Origin: Microbacterium radiodurans
Lineage (GTDB): Bacteria; Actinomycetota; Actinomycetes; Actinomycetales; Microbacteriaceae
Assembly: GCF_008710705.1 (NCBI RefSeq)
Contig: NZ_VYRZ01000001.1
Span: forward strand, 496,001 to 560,000
Reading direction: 5' to 3'
Length of the DNA: 64,000 nucleotides
This document shows positions 3,032 to 61,264 of this stretch, in pieces (position 1 is the first letter of the stretch; every line of letters starts with the position of its first letter). The notes below the pieces were generated by a model. It did not search any database and had not been told where the DNA came from. It saw only the letters and a program-made list of their open reading frames with translations. Both the position numbers and the translations under genes were made by a program.

Positions 3032-4069
3032 ATGACCCTCACCGCACCGCCGCGCTCCGTCGTGGACGATCGGGCCGCCGAGCCCGCCCGGTCCCCGCGA
3101 CGCACGTGGCGTCATCGCCTCTCGGTACTCGATCAGAAGGGCTCGCCCTACGCCTACGTCGCGCCCTTCTTCCTGCTGTTCGGTCTGGTCGGGCTCTTCC
3201 CCCTCGTCTACACCGTGTTCGTGGCCCTCCACGACTGGGACCTGCTCAAGGGGCAGGGCGACTTCGTGGGCGCGACGAACTTCACCGAGATCCTCGCCGA
3301 TCCGATGTTCTGGAACTCGATCGGCAACACCCTCAGCATCTTCATCCTCTCGGCCGTCCCGCAGCTCGCCGTCGCGCTGCTCGTCGCCTACCTGCTCGAC
3401 CGGGGACTGCGCGCACCGACCTTCTGGCGGATGAGCGTCCTCATCCCCTTCGTCGTCACCCCCGTGGCCGTCGCCCTGATCTTCTCGAGCATCTTCAACG
3501 AAGCGGACGGGCTCGCCAACAACCTGCTGAACCTCATCGGCATCCCCGATCAGCTGTGGAAGCGCGACCCGTTCCTCAGCCACCTGGCGATCGCCATCAT
3601 GGTGAACTTCCGCTGGACCGGCTACAACGCCCTCATCCTGCTCGCCGCCATGCAGGCCGTACCGCGCGACCTCTACGAGTCCGCCGCCATCGACGGCGCC
3701 GGCTCAGCGCGCCGCTTCTTCTCGATCACGCTCCCCTCGATCCGCCCGACCCTGATCTTCGTCATCATCACGGCGACGATCGGCGGTCTCCAGGTCTTCG
3801 CCGAGCCGCGCCTGTTCGATGTCTCCACGGCCGGCGGCATCGGCGGCAGCGAACGTCAGTTCCAGACGACCGTCCTCTTCCTCTGGGAGATGGCCTTCTT
3901 CCGCCGCAACCTGGGCGAGGCGTCGGCGGTCGCCATCCTGCTGTTCCTGCTCATCGTCGGCATCGGCCTCATCAACTTCCTGCTCTCGCGACGGATCGCC
4001 ACCGGCGACGCCCGGCCGCCCCGTCGAGAGCGCAGCCGCATCCGATCCCGTGCCGGAGGTGCACGATGA
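3032..4069 (+). CDS. cebF: Cellobiose ABC transporter permease CebF
   Basis: A 345-residue inner-membrane permease of the MalF type. The first roughly 45 residues are Arg/Pro-rich and cytoplasmic, then six hydrophobic segments follow, the first at about residues 48-70 (YVAPFFLLFGLVGLFPLVY). The EAA loop that contacts the ATPase is visible as YESAAIDGAGSARRFFSITLP. The ATG at 3032 has AAGGA upstream at a suitable distance. The stop overlaps the start of cebG by 4 bp (ATGA), so the two permease halves are translationally coupled and should form the CebFG heterodimer. Confidence 0.92.
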   Translation: MTLTAPPRSVVDDRAAEPARSPRRTWRHRLSVLDQKGSPYAYVAPFFLLFGLVGLFPLVYTVFVALHDWDLLKGQGDFVGATNFTEILADPMFWNSIGNTLSIFILSAVPQLAVALLVAYLLDRGLRAPTFWRMSVLIPFVVTPVAVALIFSSIFNEADGLANNLLNLIGIPDQLWKRDPFLSHLAIAIMVNFRWTGYNALILLAAMQAVPRDLYESAAIDGAGSARRFFSITLPSIRPTLIFVIITATIGGLQVFAEPRLFDVSTAGGIGGSERQFQTTVLFLWEMAFFRRNLGEASAVAILLFLLIVGIGLINFLLSRRIATGDARPPRRERSRIRSRAGGAR

Positions 4070-6500: not shown

Positions 6501-7526
6501 GTGACCACCGACGTACGAGCCGCCGCGCCGCGCAGCGCGGCGACGATCGAAGAGGTGGCGGCGGCCGCCGGCGTCTCGCGTTCGACCGTCTCGCGTGTCG
6601 TGAACGGCTCGACCGCGGTGAGCCCGACGGCGCTCGCCGCCGTGCAGCGCGCCATCACCGAGCTCAGCTACGTGCCGAACCGCGCCGCCCGATCGCTCGC
6701 CAGTCGCTCGACGATGGCGATCGCGCTGGTCGTGCCCGAAGACATCAGCCGCCTCTTCGGCGACCCGTTCTTCGCCGCGGTCGTCTCGGGCATCAATGCG
6801 CGGGTGAGCCGGTCGGACTACGTGCTGAACCTGATCATCGCCAGCAGCGACCCGGGCGACAAGACGGCGCAGTACGTCCGAAGCGGTGCGGTCGACGGCG
6901 CGATCGTCGTCTCGCACCACACGAGCGACACCTTCATCGATCGCATCGCCGCTGTCGTCCCCGTCGTGTACGGCGGGCGGCCGACCCGCCTCGTCGAGGG
7001 CGACTACTACGTCGACGTCGACAACGTCGCGGGCGCGCGCACGGCGACCGAGTACCTGATCGGTCGTGGCTTCACCCGCATCGGATCGATCGCCGGTCCG
7101 CCCTCGATGCAGGCCGGGGTCGACCGCGTCGACGGCTTCCGCGACGCTCTCGCCGCCGCCGGCCTCGAACCGGGGCCCGTCGCGGTGGGCGATTTCACCG
7201 TGGAATCCGGTGCCGCGGCGATGCGCGAGATCCTCGCCGGCGGCCGCGAGTTCGACGCGCTCTTCGTCGCGAGCGACCTGATGGCCCGGGGTGTGATCCC
7301 CGTGCTCGAGACGGCCGGTCGGCGCGTCCCGGACGATGTCGCGGTCGTCGGCTTCGACGACTCGCCCGTGGCCTCCACGACCGCGCCCGCGCTCACGACC
7401 ATGCGTCAGCCGTCGTTCCAGCAGGGAGAGCGGATGGCCGAGGTGCTGCTGGAGCGCCTCGCCGGGGGCACGCCGCCCGAGGAGACGATCCTCGACACCG
7501 AGCTCGTCGTCCGCGACTCGGCCTGA
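6501..7526 (+). CDS. cebR: LacI-family cellobiose repressor CebR
   Basis: A 341-residue LacI/GalR regulator. The N-terminal helix-turn-helix reads TIEEVAAAAGVSRSTVSRVVNG (in two pieces: TIEEVAAAAGVS, then RSTVSRVVNG), followed by the hinge helix YVPNRAARSLASRST that inserts into the minor groove. The rest is a periplasmic-binding-protein-like sugar sensor with GFDDSPVAS near the C-terminus. It is the last gene of the operon, so repression is autoregulatory; in Streptomyces, cellobiose or cellotriose releases CebR. The three near-consensus CebR boxes upstream of cebE make the assignment stronger than homology alone. GTG start at 6501, 7 bp after the bglC stop. Confidence 0.92.
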   Translation: MTTDVRAAAPRSAATIEEVAAAAGVSRSTVSRVVNGSTAVSPTALAAVQRAITELSYVPNRAARSLASRSTMAIALVVPEDISRLFGDPFFAAVVSGINARVSRSDYVLNLIIASSDPGDKTAQYVRSGAVDGAIVVSHHTSDTFIDRIAAVVPVVYGGRPTRLVEGDYYVDVDNVAGARTATEYLIGRGFTRIGSIAGPPSMQAGVDRVDGFRDALAAAGLEPGPVAVGDFTVESGAAAMREILAGGREFDALFVASDLMARGVIPVLETAGRRVPDDVAVVGFDDSPVASTTAPALTTMRQPSFQQGERMAEVLLERLAGGTPPEETILDTELVVRDSA

Positions 7527-43920: not shown

Positions 43921-45039
43921 GTGGCGGACCCGACCGATCCCGAGTCGCGTCGCGCGCGCCGACAGCGCGAAGCGGCGACGCGTCCGCTGCCGACCCGTCG
44001 CGAGGCGCGGGCCGCCGCCACGCGCGGCCAGCGCCGGCATCCTCCCGCCGTCTACCTGCGTCGGCGCATCGTGGCCGGCGCGATCGCCCTGGCGCTCGTC
44101 GGCAGCGCGGTCGGGGGCATCGCCGCCGGCGTCTCGGCTCTGCTGGGCACGTCGACGGTCGACACGGATGCCGCCGCGCTCGTCGACCTGCCCGCCGGAG
44201 TCAGCGCCTCGCTCGCCACCGTCCTCCCCGCTCCGGCGCAGACGGGTACGGCGGCGGCTCCCGACGCGGCCCCCGACGCCGCCGACACCGCTCCGGAGGG
44301 TGATGCGAGCGTCGCGGCGGCGTGCAACGATCCCGCCGTGCAGCAGGCCCTGGACGAGGGTCGCGACGGCGATGTCATCGCCGCGTTCGGCGGGGGCGAG
44401 GGGTTCCGCGCCGCGGTCGCGAACGGGGAGGCGCCGTGCATCGACCTGCACCAGGCCCGCCACGTCTGGGTCGTCGTGAACAAGCTGAACGCCCTCGATC
44501 CGATCGACTACTGGCCCGAGCCGCAGGCGCGTGCCGAGGGCGTGCAGCGTACGAGCGGCGGTCACATGCGCTCCGACGTCGCGGGTGCCGTCGTCGAGCT
44601 GGCCCGCGCAGCGGAGGACGAAGGGGCCGGCGCGATCGGGGTGAACAGCGGCTTCCGGTCCTTCGATCTCCAGACCTCGACCTACCGCGGCTACGTCGGA
44701 CAGCTCGGCCAGGAGGGAGCCGACCTCACGAGCGCCCGCCCGGGCTACAGCGAGCATCAGACCGGTCTCGCGGTCGACGTCGTCGCCTGCGCGGACGGAT
44801 GCGGCACGATCGAGCGTTTCGGCGGAACGGCGCAGTCCGAGTGGGTCGCCGCCAACGCGTGGCGGTTCGGCTTCATCGTCCGCTACGGCGACGGCGACAC
44901 CCCGACGACGGGGTACGAGTACGAGCCGTGGCATCTGCGCTACGTCGGTGTCGACCTCGCGCGCGCCTACTCGGACGGCGGATACCGCACCCTCGAAGAC
45001 TTCTTCGGGCTGCCCGCCGCGCCCGATTACGCCGACTGA
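43921..45039 (+). CDS. D-alanyl-D-alanine carboxypeptidase, VanY (M15B) family, membrane-anchored
   Basis: A 372-residue protein with an Arg-rich cytoplasmic N-terminus, one transmembrane helix (about 52-75) and an extracytoplasmic M15B peptidase domain (about 180-372). Zinc and catalytic motifs are visible: NSGFRSFDLQ, YSEHQTGLAVDVV (His and Asp zinc ligands) and YEPWHLRYVG (Glu base and third His ligand). It should trim terminal D-Ala from peptidoglycan stem peptides. An Ala/Pro/Asp-rich linker joins membrane and domain. The GTG at 43921 lies just after CACAATGGACGG, so the transcript may be leaderless. Confidence 0.88.
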   Translation: MADPTDPESRRARRQREAATRPLPTRREARAAATRGQRRHPPAVYLRRRIVAGAIALALVGSAVGGIAAGVSALLGTSTVDTDAAALVDLPAGVSASLATVLPAPAQTGTAAAPDAAPDAADTAPEGDASVAAACNDPAVQQALDEGRDGDVIAAFGGGEGFRAAVANGEAPCIDLHQARHVWVVVNKLNALDPIDYWPEPQARAEGVQRTSGGHMRSDVAGAVVELARAAEDEGAGAIGVNSGFRSFDLQTSTYRGYVGQLGQEGADLTSARPGYSEHQTGLAVDVVACADGCGTIERFGGTAQSEWVAANAWRFGFIVRYGDGDTPTTGYEYEPWHLRYVGVDLARAYSDGGYRTLEDFFGLPAAPDYAD

Positions 45040-45054
45040 TCCAACCGGCCGTCC

Positions 45055-45116
45055 GTCGACTCGCCACGTTCTGCGGATGCGGGCGCTGCGGCATCCGCTA
45101 TTTCTGGCGAGTCGAC
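45055..45116. repeat. 62-bp palindromic repeat with GTCGACTCGCCA ends, intergenic copy
   Basis: GTCGACTCGCCA (45055-45066) and TGGCGAGTCGAC (45105-45116) are perfect 12-bp arms. A second copy of exactly 62 bp, matching at 53 of 62 positions, lies inside the DUF3516 helicase gene at 60182. This copy sits between convergent genes. Confidence 0.88.
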
Positions 45117-45201
45117 CGATGCGGGTCAGCCGGCGCGGCGGCGGGCGAGGCTGGCGACGCACAGGGCGAGACGCGCGCGACCCCCGACCGCGGCGAGCGG
45201 C

Positions 45202-46041
45202 TCACCCCGATGCCCGTTCGCTCGCGCCGATCCGCCAGTAGCCGACGAAGCTGACGCTGTCCTTCGACACCCCGCGCTCGTTCACGAGCAGCCGGCGCCC
45301 CGCCGCCACGAGCGACTGCTCGCCGACGATGAAGGCGTGCAGCGGTGCCGGCGGCAGGTCGGCGGCGGCGAGTGCGCCGAGGGCGGACGACCCCGGCTTC
45401 GCCCCGTGCCCGCGGACGAGCCAGCGGACCTCCACGCCCGTCGGCGCATCGAACGGGAGGACGTCGTCGGCGGTCGGCGCCTCGATCAGCGCCAGCCCGG
45501 ATGCCGTCGCCGGCAGCGCGGAGCAGATGGATGCGACGGCGGGTGCCCCGGTCTCGTCGGCCACGAGGACGACGCGGTCGACCCCGCGGTCGGGATTGAA
45601 CCGCAGCCCCTCGTCGATGATCACGACGCTCTCGCCGGCGTGCGCCTGCTCTGCCCAGCGCGACGCCGGACCCGCGGTCGGACCGGACCCGTGGAGGACG
45701 AAGTCGACGTCGATCTCGGGCCCGCCGGACGGGCCGGTCGCGCGATAGGCGCGCACCGAGTAGTTACGCATCACGGGGCGTTCCCCTTCGGGGATGCGCA
45801 GGTACTTGAGGTACCCGAACAGCGTGTTCGCCTTCGCGGGAACGCGGTCGAGACCAGCATCCCCGCCGACGGGCAGGAAGATGCGGAACCACTGGTCGTA
45901 GCCGAGGGGGACGAAGCCGCCGACATCGCCGCCGCCGAGTGTGACGCGCATCCAGTGCGGCGCGATGCGCTCGGCTCGGACGACCCTCAGGTGCAGCAGC
46001 CCGGCGGACGCTGGTTCGACGAGGCCGGCGGTTCGGGCCAT
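45202..46041 (-). CDS. Siderophore-interacting protein (FAD-dependent ferric reductase type)
   Basis: A 279-residue SIP/ViuB-family flavoprotein that in relatives reduces ferric siderophores to release iron in the cytoplasm. FAD-binding features include RVTLGGGDV and the RNYSVRAYR motif; the NAD(P)-binding part has VVLVADETGAPAVASI; the C-terminal AFIVGEQSL and SFVGYWRIG are the SIP signature, where the conserved basic/tryptophan region contacts substrate. It is the last gene of the ECF cluster, 32 bp after the T component, and falls under the iron box near 48.76 kb if the operon is read through. Confidence 0.9.
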   Translation of the reverse strand: MARTAGLVEPASAGLLHLRVVRAERIAPHWMRVTLGGGDVGGFVPLGYDQWFRIFLPVGGDAGLDRVPAKANTLFGYLKYLRIPEGERPVMRNYSVRAYRATGPSGGPEIDVDFVLHGSGPTAGPASRWAEQAHAGESVVIIDEGLRFNPDRGVDRVVLVADETGAPAVASICSALPATASGLALIEAPTADDVLPFDAPTGVEVRWLVRGHGAKPGSSALGALAAADLPPAPLHAFIVGEQSLVAAGRRLLVNERGVSKDSVSFVGYWRIGASERASG

Positions 46042-58684: not shown

Positions 58685-61264
58685 ATGACCGCTGCGCCGC
58701 TGCTCGACCTCATCGGGCCGGAGCCCTCCGACGACGCGATCTACGACGCGTTCACGGCCTGGGCCGACGGGCGCGGTCTCACCCTCTACCCGGCGCAGGA
58801 CGAAGCCGTCATCGAGCTCGTCTCGGGCGCGAACGTCGTGCTCGCCACTCCGACGGGCACGGGCAAGTCGCTCGTCGCGGTCGCGGCGCACGCGGCATCC
58901 ATCGCCCGCGGCGGACGCACGTATTACACCGCTCCCATCAAGGCGCTCGTGAGCGAGAAGTTCTTCGCCCTCGTCGAGATCTTCGGCGCCGACAAGGTCG
59001 GCATGGTCACGGGCGACTCGTCGGTCAATCCCGAGGCGCCGATCGTCTGCTGCACCGCCGAGATCCTCGCGAACCTCGCCCTCCGTCAGGGCGCCGACGC
59101 CGACGTCGACCAGGTCGTCATGGACGAGTTCCACTTCTACGGCGACCCCGATCGCGGCTGGGCCTGGCAGGTTCCGCTGCTGACCCTGCCGCGCGCGCAG
59201 TTCCTGCTCATGTCGGCCACGCTCGGCGACGTCACCGACCTCGCGGACGACCTCTCACGTCGTACGGGACGGCGGACGGCCCTGGTCACGGGCGTCGAGC
59301 GCCCCGTGCCGCTGCACTTCTCGTACGAGCGGCGTCCGGTGCACGACGTCCTCGAGCGCCTGCTCGAGGAGCGCGAGACGCCGGTCTACATCGTGCACTT
59401 CTCGCAGGCCGCCGCCCTCGAACGCGCCCAAGCGCTGTCGAGCGTGAAGATCACGACACGCGAGCAGCGGGACGCCATCGCCGAGGCGATCGGCGGCTTC
59501 CGCTTCACGACCGGCTTCGGCAAGACCCTGTCGCGCCTCGTGCGCGCCGGCATCGGCGTGCACCACGCCGGGATGCTGCCGCGCTACCGGCGCCTCGTCG
59601 AGACGCTCGCGCAGCGCGGCCTGCTGAAGGTCATCTGCGGCACCGACACGCTGGGGGTGGGCATCAACGTGCCCATCCGCACGGTGGTCATCACGGCGCT
59701 GTCGAAATACGACGGAACCCGGATGCGGCAGCTCACCGCCCGTGAATTCCATCAGGTCGCGGGTCGTGCGGGCCGGGCCGGTTTCGACCCGCACGGCAAC
59801 GTCGTCGTCATGGCTCCGGAGTGGGAGATCGAGAACGCCGTCGCGCTCGCCAAGGCGGGCGACGATGCGGCCAAGCGTAAGAAGATCGTGCGCAAGAAGG
59901 CGCCGACCGGGGTGGTCAATTGGGGCGAGGGATCGTTCGAACGGCTCATCGACGCGCAGCCGGAGCCCCTGACGCCGCAGCTCCAGCTCAGCGCGGCGAT
60001 GCTGCTCAACGTCATCGGCCGCGGAGGCGACGTGTTCGGCAACGTCCGGTCGCTCGTCTTCGACAACCACGAGCCCCGGGCGCGGAAGTACGCCCTCGCC
60101 CGCCGCGCCCTCGCCATCTTCCGCACCCTGGTCGCCGCCGGCATCGTCGAGATCGTCCGCCCCGCTTCGCCCGCGCCCTCCGTCGAGTCGCCACGGAATG
60201 TGGATGCGGCGGGTGCGGCATCCGCGATTTCTGGCGAGTCGACGATCAGGCTCACGGTCGACCTGCAGCCGAACTTCGCGCTCAACCAGCCGCTGTCGCC
60301 GTTCGCGCTCGCGGCGATCGAGCTGCTCTCTCCCGATGACGCCGAGACGGGCACCGGGCACTACGCGCTCGATGTCGTGAGCGTGATCGAGGCGACGCTC
60401 GACGACCCTCGCGCGATCCTGTCGCAGCAGGAGTACAAAGCCCGCGGTGAAGCGGTCGGCGCGATGAAGCGGGACGGCATCGAGTACGACGAGCGGATGG
60501 CGCTGCTCGAGGAGATCACCTGGCCGAAGCCCCTCGCCGACCTGCTCGCCCAGGCGTTCGAGACGTTCGCGTCGAGCCAGCCGTGGGTGCGCGACTTCGA
60601 GCTGTCGCCGAAGTCGGTGGTGCGCGACATGTTCGAGCGGGCGATGTCGTTCGGCGAGTTCGTGTCGTTCTACCAACTGGGTCGCAGCGAGGGTCTCGTG
60701 CTGCGCTATCTGAGCGACGCGTACCGGGCGATCCGGCAGACGGTGCCGGCCGAGGCGCGCACCGACGACCTCATGGACCTCATCGAGTGGCTGGGCGAGC
60801 TCGTCCGTCAGGTCGACTCGAGCCTCGTCGACGAGTGGGAGGCGCTGGCGAACCCGACCGACGACCCGGACGCTCCGGTGGTGCCGCCCGCACCGCCGTC
60901 GATCCTGACGAACCGTCGCGCCTTCACGGTGCTCGTGCGCAACGAGCTCTTCCGCCGCGTGCAGCTGGCCGCGCTGCAGGACGACGAGGCGCTCGAGGCG
61001 CTCGACCCCGAGGTCGACTGGCCCGCGGTGCTCGACCGCTACTACGACGACCACAACGTGGTGCTGACCGGCGGTCCGGCGCGCTCGCCGTCGCTGTGCG
61101 TCATCGACGAGTCGTCGACGGATGCCGGTGTCTGGCGCGTCGAGCAGATCATCGACGACCCCGCGGGCGACCACGACTGGCGCATCCGCGCCGAGGTCGA
61201 CCTCGAGGCGTCTGTCGAGGCGGGCACCGCCGTCGCGCGGGTGATCGAGGTCGTCCGGCTCTGA
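58685..61264 (+). CDS. DEAD/DEAH-type helicase with DUF3516 C-terminal domain
   Basis: An 859-residue Ski2-like helicase found in actinobacteria. Walker A is ATPTGTGKS with Lys61; motif II is DEFH (147-150), where most relatives have DExH; LLMSATLGD is motif III; HHAGMLPRYR and GTDTLGVGINVP with HQVAGRAGRAGFD form the C-terminal RecA domain. The DUF3516 part follows (about 430-859). Residues 500-520 (VESPRNVDAAGAASAISGEST, given as VESPRNVDAAG and AASAISGEST) are encoded by a 62-bp palindromic repeat that also occurs intergenically, so this stretch is a late insertion. Role in RNA or DNA metabolism not established. Confidence 0.9.
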   Translation: MTAAPLLDLIGPEPSDDAIYDAFTAWADGRGLTLYPAQDEAVIELVSGANVVLATPTGTGKSLVAVAAHAASIARGGRTYYTAPIKALVSEKFFALVEIFGADKVGMVTGDSSVNPEAPIVCCTAEILANLALRQGADADVDQVVMDEFHFYGDPDRGWAWQVPLLTLPRAQFLLMSATLGDVTDLADDLSRRTGRRTALVTGVERPVPLHFSYERRPVHDVLERLLEERETPVYIVHFSQAAALERAQALSSVKITTREQRDAIAEAIGGFRFTTGFGKTLSRLVRAGIGVHHAGMLPRYRRLVETLAQRGLLKVICGTDTLGVGINVPIRTVVITALSKYDGTRMRQLTAREFHQVAGRAGRAGFDPHGNVVVMAPEWEIENAVALAKAGDDAAKRKKIVRKKAPTGVVNWGEGSFERLIDAQPEPLTPQLQLSAAMLLNVIGRGGDVFGNVRSLVFDNHEPRARKYALARRALAIFRTLVAAGIVEIVRPASPAPSVESPRNVDAAGAASAISGESTIRLTVDLQPNFALNQPLSPFALAAIELLSPDDAETGTGHYALDVVSVIEATLDDPRAILSQQEYKARGEAVGAMKRDGIEYDERMALLEEITWPKPLADLLAQAFETFASSQPWVRDFELSPKSVVRDMFERAMSFGEFVSFYQLGRSEGLVLRYLSDAYRAIRQTVPAEARTDDLMDLIEWLGELVRQVDSSLVDEWEALANPTDDPDAPVVPPAPPSILTNRRAFTVLVRNELFRRVQLAALQDDEALEALDPEVDWPAVLDRYYDDHNVVLTGGPARSPSLCVIDESSTDAGVWRVEQIIDDPAGDHDWRIRAEVDLEASVEAGTAVARVIEVVRL
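60182..60243. repeat. 62-bp palindromic repeat inside the DUF3516 helicase gene
   Basis: Arms GTCGAGTCGCCA (60182-60193) and TGGCGAGTCGAC (60232-60243) pair at 11 of 12 positions. The element matches the intergenic copy at 45055 at 53 of 62 positions with no gaps. It keeps the helicase frame open and adds about 21 residues. Confidence 0.9.

Follow-up and report, generated by a model that had tools for sequence, protein, structure and literature searches.

Known Palindromic Repeats

Short palindromic repeats of bacteria are often regarded as selfish or neutral, and intrinsic terminators carry a strong hairpin just past stop codons, which is symmetric between convergent genes. The element considered here is a palindrome of 62 bp that occurs twice in a 64,000-nucleotide stretch of the Microbacterium radiodurans genome (the window). 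It has terminal inverted repeats, as MITEs do, and hairpin potential right after stop codons, as intrinsic terminators do; it differs from the latter in that a T-run was not found at the window copies and in that the primary sequence of its arms and inner hexamers is conserved.

REPINs, or REP doublets, share with the element their inverted conserved ends, separated by a set length of less conserved spacer, the potential to form hairpins, and an extragenic location, according to the available part of their description (PMC3116915). The differences from that description are that the Microbacterium halves are not palindromes, that a Y1_Tnp transposase is absent from 294 of 295 genomes of the genus, and that the element is strongly conserved at orthologous sites. 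CGTC-type REPs, in the accessible text of PMC3733652, also occur without a dedicated transposase, have known intragenic copies, and consist of an unpaired tag adjoining an 8-9-bp stem with a 4-5-bp loop. Many arms of the element, taken with the preceding base, read CGTC...CCA, which recalls the CGTC tag and the CCA tail; however, CGTC and CCA here lie in a single 12-13-bp arm, and a stem of that kind is absent. The same accessible text mentions untagged REP-like families in M. tuberculosis, and the word actinobacteria is absent from it. Rickettsia palindromic elements, which are about 150 bp long and lie mostly in ORFs (PMC10969869, available part), resemble the element in being palindromic and inserted in frame in genes, but the Microbacterium copies are mostly intergenic (123 of the 141 classed), the helicase copy alone being firmly within a gene. 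A description of the 62-bp element was not found in the titles and abstract openings of a limited literature collection.

The Two Copies in the Window

One copy lies between two convergent genes and the other lies within a gene for a DEAD-box/DUF3516 helicase (Table 1). The sequence-only reading had matched the two at 53 of 62 positions without gaps, and alignment reproduced this figure. It had also held that their outer inverted arms were identical; the shared arm sequence, GTCGA(C/G)TCGCCA facing TGGCGAGTCGAC, stood, but perfect inversion did not hold in the helicase copy, where G faces G at arm positions 6 and 57. In-frame coding of some 21 residues was borne out: the first base of the helicase copy is also the first of a codon, and the copy encodes VESPRNVDAAGAASAISGES followed by the initial two bases of a Thr codon, supplying residues 500-520 of the 859-aa protein.

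Table 1. Coordinates, in the window, of the two element copies, their parts and the neighbouring genes.
Feature	Position	Strand	Remark
62-bp element, in frame in DUF3516 helicase ORF	60182..60243	.	genome site G000:C1:556182-556243, covariance model
Helicase copy, left arm GTCGAGTCGCCA (position 6 = G)	60182..60193	.	
Helicase copy, right arm TGGCGAGTCGAC	60232..60243	.	
Helicase copy, left inner hexamer GTGGAT (consensus GCGGRT), element positions 19-24	60200..60205	.	
Helicase copy, right inner hexamer ATCCGC, element positions 39-44	60220..60225	.	
DEAD-box/DUF3516 helicase gene hosting the element	58685..61264	+	start taken at ATG 58685
62-bp element between two convergent genes	45055..45116	.	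genome site G000:C1:541055-541116
Intergenic copy, left arm GTCGACTCGCCA	45055..45066	.	
Intergenic copy, right arm TGGCGAGTCGAC	45105..45116	.	
Intergenic copy, left inner hexamer GCGGAT	45073..45078	.	
Intergenic copy, right inner hexamer ATCCGC	45093..45098	.	
15-bp spacer from stop codon (end 45039) to intergenic element	45040..45054	+	
Gene ending 15 bp 5' of intergenic element (start uncertain)	44071..45039	+	codon-usage gene caller
Opposite convergent gene, stop 85 bp from element (start uncertain)	45202..46041	-	codon-usage gene caller

A Dispersed Family of Fixed Length

The 3.18-Mb genome (6 contigs) contains the strict pattern TCGASTCGCCA-N(26-50)-TGGCGASTCGA at 20 sites and the reversed pattern at none, and the spacer is 38 bases long in all 20, though 26-50 were permitted. 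These results exclude a chance origin of the two-copy match. A covariance model built from 23 copies gives 27 genome sites at E<=4.3e-4, all of 62 bp (150 scored candidates), the next match coming only at E=0.057. Microbacterium genomes do contain the 62-base palindrome as a genuine repeat: the dispersed family supposed from the two copies exists, and the possibility, raised with it, that such matches occur at random frequency is contradicted by both searches. In 656 kb of loci, arms standing alone are roughly as frequent as expected by chance: 14 were counted, compared with 8 for the reversed pattern, once two of the 16 first listed had been assigned to an intact second copy removed by de-duplication (L201). 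At this locus, in Microbacterium sp. Yaish 1, a 305-bp duplicate (3670-3974 and 6908-7212, 99.7% identity, about 3.2 kb apart) comprises a gene end together with a copy of the element. In M. radiodurans, contig C1, which makes up 39% of the genome, holds 21 of the 27 sites (binomial p=8e-5, contigs C1-C3).

The covariance model is matched by 79 of 295 genomes of the genus at E<=1e-3 (18 candidates scored per genome) and by 11 of 396 genomes of the order at E<=1e-5 (13 scored per genome), four of the latter coming from other families. Two loci from another family of the order (L304 and L305) carry, between called convergent genes, nearly perfect palindromes of 62 bp whose arms are related to those of the element but differ from them. 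The strict pattern misses most of the genus, occurring in the M. radiodurans genome and one other among 58 sampled. A pattern scan of named genomes yielded, among the matches listed, at least 103 stretches, with 90 in Microbacterium, four in other Microbacteriaceae (Microterricola, Herbiconiux and Amnibacterium) and nine elsewhere, which were judged near chance by estimate.

Against the 27 sites of M. radiodurans, both-strand matches number 58 in Microbacterium sp. AG238 (G238), 70 in Yaish 1 (G243), 24 in G186, five in G082 and seven in G229; in G186, which is a single contig, the copies listed are scattered round the chromosome. Neither G229 nor G082 has the element at the aspC or folD ends, and so few copies in such close relatives indicate that the element is dispensable.

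Position Relative to Genes

Gene context was assigned by a codon-usage gene caller written for the analysis, and 141 copies were classed: those in the loci fetched from five close species, together with 23 of the 27 sites of M. radiodurans. They fall into 65 convergent, 56 tandem, 2 divergent, 15 in-gene and 3 locus-edge copies (three chance matches, L191:6377, L215 and L187, remain in this total). From intergenic lengths in the same loci, 20.7 convergent, 65.7 tandem and 36.5 divergent copies would be expected; counted per ortholog group, the figures are 33, 23 and 2 against 9.8, 31 and 17.2 expected. The 15 in-gene calls consist of five in the helicase, the three chance matches and seven doubtful ones, which sit at called starts or C-termini and are possibly gene-call artefacts, and the helicase is the one firm site in a gene.

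Of 121 copies, 62% have their nearest stop codon at a distance of 10-22 bp, compared with the 26% that uniform placement within these gaps would give, and the commonest distance is 15 bp. The element's main location, immediately behind stop codons and hardly ever between divergent genes, goes beyond what had been read from the two copies. The spacer on the stop side is rich in C (0.64 C, n=119, versus 0.41 C at 106 element-free ends), and in 41 tandem copies the far flank, which faces the gene start, is rich in G (0.55 G), as its mirror image. In view of these mirrored flanks, the module may be roughly 90 bp long, and the 15-bp register may simply be the flank length. Other gene ends in the same loci have strong hairpins too, starting a median of 18 nt past the stop (14 cases); these differ in span, and the spacer before them is 0.41 C (n=14).

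At the aspC end, a palindrome scoring at least 13 and spanning 50-75 bp is present in 11 of 30 genomes, in several sequence families (distinguished by eye), as against 14 of 93 other gene ends compared under slightly different start limits, including at least four that represent such a site viewed from the opposite strand. At the folD end, such a palindrome is present in only three of 30 genomes, and some relatives without the element carry ordinary short hairpins there; since the own folD copy scores only 10, the score undercounts. The reuse of one place by different families is thus observed at the helicase and aspC sites and hardly at folD. Other conserved-arm palindrome families were noticed at the 3' ends of Microbacterium genes, with arms such as CGAGAACGCACC, CCGCGAGAC, AAGTCTCCGACGA and GCGTGAGGGGTCAA (grouped by eye; loci L225, L140, L166, L194, L187, L272; L251, L274, L278, L279; L268, L101, L115; L246).

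Conservation at Orthologous Sites

In 152 orthologous pairs, which are non-independent and were selected by intact arms, identity is 98.3% in the arms, 92.6% in the hexamers, 72.5% in the centre, 70.4% at S, 63.2% in the spacer and 54.8% in the ungapped 10-bp flanks. A retest in sister species, using loci that had been fetched anyway for another copy, found the element intact in 100 of 111 site tests (reciprocal comparisons included), and when S is left free, 10 of 2000 positions depart from the consensus of the arms. It was missing in the other 11, one of which was a mis-called chance match. No half-decayed copies were seen in the ortholog tests of the element-bearing clade; outside the clade, G082 has a degenerate copy at the site corresponding to own position 236115. 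All own copies are 62 bp long, and almost every copy of the close species measures 61-62 bp. That the element is intact in 100 of 111 site tests while the spacer and flanks diverge indicates that selection acts site by site. Mobility had been suggested from the sequence; recent mobility finds no support in these tests, nor in a helicase copy common to five species.

Symmetry, Pairing and Folding

The element is built of arms GTCGA-S-TCGCCA and their mirror image, inner GCGGRT hexamers, a variable spacer between these, and a variable centre. Its outer quasi-palindromes, GTCGA-S-TCGCC, have their centres 51 bp apart, and each single arm is a near-palindrome about the free base S. Composition was taken from 153 copies with at most two arm substitutions; a looser search, with four, caught chance matches and other families. 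In this set, arm positions 3-5 and 7-11 show 98-100% agreement, and S pairs with its partner in 71% of copies compared with the 59% expected if the halves were independent. Positions 6 and 57 are C-C or G-G in 29% of the 153, which argues against a hairpin under tight pairing selection. At positions 13-18 and 25-31, the 153 copies are no more self-complementary than shuffled halves. When redundancy is reduced to 80 copies, positions 13-18 reach 0.498 against 0.423 for the shuffle, and positions 25-31 again show no excess.

Covariation is weak among 23 own copies. In the ortholog comparisons, positions 6 and 57 are changed on both sides in 19 of 152 and on one side in 52; at positions 13-18, double changes leave 32 pairs paired versus 22 unpaired, and single changes are pair-breaking in 139 cases versus pair-keeping in 90. 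Double changes thus seem somewhat in excess between orthologs, a weak compensatory signal that disfavours a pure DNA site. Given the mismatches at 6/57 on the one hand and the double changes and the pairing at 13-18 on the other, neither a pure DNA site nor a pure hairpin fully fits.

The whole element folds at -39 kcal/mol versus -21 when shuffled. Its 31-nt halves fold no better than mononucleotide shuffles (-7.98 versus -8.01 kcal/mol, 80 copies), and the candidate REP doublet was rejected on this ground. Related palindromes in other species are frequently near-perfect stems. Rfam gave no match at gathering score in eight loci (39,309 bases), and a terminator scan requiring a T-run gave nothing at either window copy.

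The Helicase Copy

All 30 genomes searched for the helicase had a match, which in G019 was only a distant paralogue, and 29 loops were compared. The loop is 12-18 nt long in 16 of these relatives and 27-60 nt in eight. An element of the own type occupies it in two (G243 and G238), and cf332 and M. arborescens also have it in the helicase; it was not seen at this site in SMR1. In G242 and G027, the loop holds a different palindrome of similar size, in the same frame and with the same right edge, and in G160 (L099) a third palindrome family, GTTGAGCGAGCGAAGCGAGACGAAACGC, a similar one being found at a gene end in L300. G229, whose helicase protein is 95-96% identical to the own one, has an 18-nt loop that resembles a deletion scar and retains the last eight bases of the element. 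In the helicase tree, the element-rich group is joined first by G229 and then by G082, at modest support.

Because 16 of 29 relatives have a 12-18-nt loop, one of them with a scar-like remnant, the helicase copy is an insertion in a loop of variable length. This agrees with the in-frame insertion proposed from the sequence alone, most of the relatives examined having no element or another form of it. Filled and empty sites were compared by eye for a target-site duplication, the empty sites being much diverged. The predicted helicase fold (mean pLDDT 50.5) was left out of the conclusions. At L143 (Yaish 1), a run of TCT/GCT codons forms a linker 5' of the helicase element, and its length varies by species.

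In five species (M. arborescens partial), third codon positions vary at 0 of 10 places in the arms and hexamers versus 297 of 711 elsewhere (p=0.007), and in the spacer and centre 8 of 18 first and second codon positions are variable, versus 43 of 1420 elsewhere; one second position in a hexamer and both S positions also vary. These small numbers, with invariant third positions in the arms and variable first and second positions in the spacer, suggest that selection acts on the DNA of the insert more than on the protein it encodes. An alternative envisaged beforehand, that relatives would share the residues with diverged DNA, was not observed: within the gene, the DNA of the arms is kept, and the residues of the spacer vary.

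Searches for a Mobiliser and Rejected Candidates

The Y1_Tnp profile (PF01797), which matches five of 14 control genomes, has no match in the own genome and one in the 295 genomes of the genus, and mobilisation by RAYT/Y1_Tnp was rejected because the profile is lacking here and in 294 of the 295. With this absence, and with halves that are not hairpins, a REP/RAYT mechanism is not supported. A search of phage and plasmid collections with the 72-base stretch 45050-45121 gave nothing at E<=0.01, and a vector of either kind was set aside. Insertion into the loop of an older hairpin was also rejected: complementarity over the first 15 flank positions is not clearly raised, at 0.411 compared with 0.396 when the flanks are re-dealt, 87 of 500 re-deals being as high; flank positions 3 and 4 reach 0.48 and 0.44 against 0.30. 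A macrodomain site (matS- or parS-like) was set aside in view of the spread of the listed G186 copies, and yet 21 of the 27 own sites are on C1.

Competing Explanations

The explanation tentatively preferred, and quite possible, is that of a gene-end element whose sequence is read specifically by a putative factor and which probably works in both directions, as a terminator or a boundary. Microbacterium would maintain a fixed-length, two-fold symmetric site at gene ends, where it would act in both directions as a transcription terminator or boundary; the palindrome would form a strong hairpin in the transcript of either direction, the arms would be recognised by the putative factor, and new sites would arise through a copying route. 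The helicase copy would then be old, in frame, lodged in a variable-length loop and still constrained as DNA. Fixed length, gene-end register and site-by-site conservation make a functional element at gene ends more likely than neutral remains of a mobile one, and the ordinary short hairpins at the folD ends of relatives without the element speak for the gene-end reading. Against termination are the empty T-run scan at both window copies and the oddity of a terminator within a translated gene, and against the explanation as a whole is the finding of 35 of 66 ortholog groups in a single species (a number limited by the loci fetched). Those same single-species groups would suit a REP- or MITE-like mobile palindrome with its mobilising enzyme lost or unseen, for which gene ends would reflect tolerance or the targeting of terminators, and the arms would be recognition ends. 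This somewhat unlikely explanation would account for a dispersed fixed-length unit with invariant ends, for copy numbers that vary among close relatives (27 own sites, 5 to 70 both-strand matches), and for the true insertion in the helicase loop with its scar-like remnant in G229; CGTC-type REPs, in the accessible text of PMC3733652, likewise do without a dedicated transposase. However, it has to face the near-absence of Y1_Tnp from the genus, halves that do not fold, the lack of phage or plasmid matches to 45050-45121, and solitary arms so near chance that a longer element with these ends was not seen in 656 kb; moreover, neutral insertions would not keep their arms near 99.5% consensus as spacer and flanks diverge.

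A DNA-binding site of a regulatory protein or chromosome organiser, which would have no function at the RNA level and for which gene ends would be just the places permitted, is rather unlikely. Positions 6/57 do behave like the free centre of a symmetric double-stranded site, positions 13-18 and 25-31 lack excess self-complementarity in all 153 copies, the constraint within the helicase ORF is at the DNA level, the C/G-rich flanks are mirrored in tandem copies, and 21 of the 27 own sites share one contig. Yet the stop-codon register and the near-absence from divergent gaps point to transcription ends, the listed G186 copies are scattered, pairing-preserving double changes occur, and positions 13-18 show excess pairing in the 80 less redundant copies. 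That strong hairpins lie at other gene ends too, at a median of 18 nt past the stop (14 cases), might suggest an ordinary strong hairpin terminator, its similarity across sites being drift from a few recent duplications. This is highly improbable, for the arm sequence is kept across separate sites and species, at 61-62 bp in nearly all copies, whereas the other hairpins vary in span, no T-run was found at the window copies, and the stop-side spacer is richer in C than that beside the other hairpins (0.64 against 0.41, n=14).

Significance for Microbacterium

A bolder form of the gene-end explanation, and quite an unlikely one, is that a dedicated protein-palindrome system marks the gene ends of Microbacterium. 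It would combine a putative factor and selection at each site with a lineage-wise, concerted turnover of the recognition sequence, which would leave different palindrome families, alike in size, at the same orthologous places of different species, such as the helicase loop and the aspC end. The family has no visible transposase, yet its copies are individually conserved in sequence at gene ends. If a factor does bind them, they would represent a novel type of boundary or gene-end system, whose lineage-specific families would allow a direct test of the co-evolution of site and factor.
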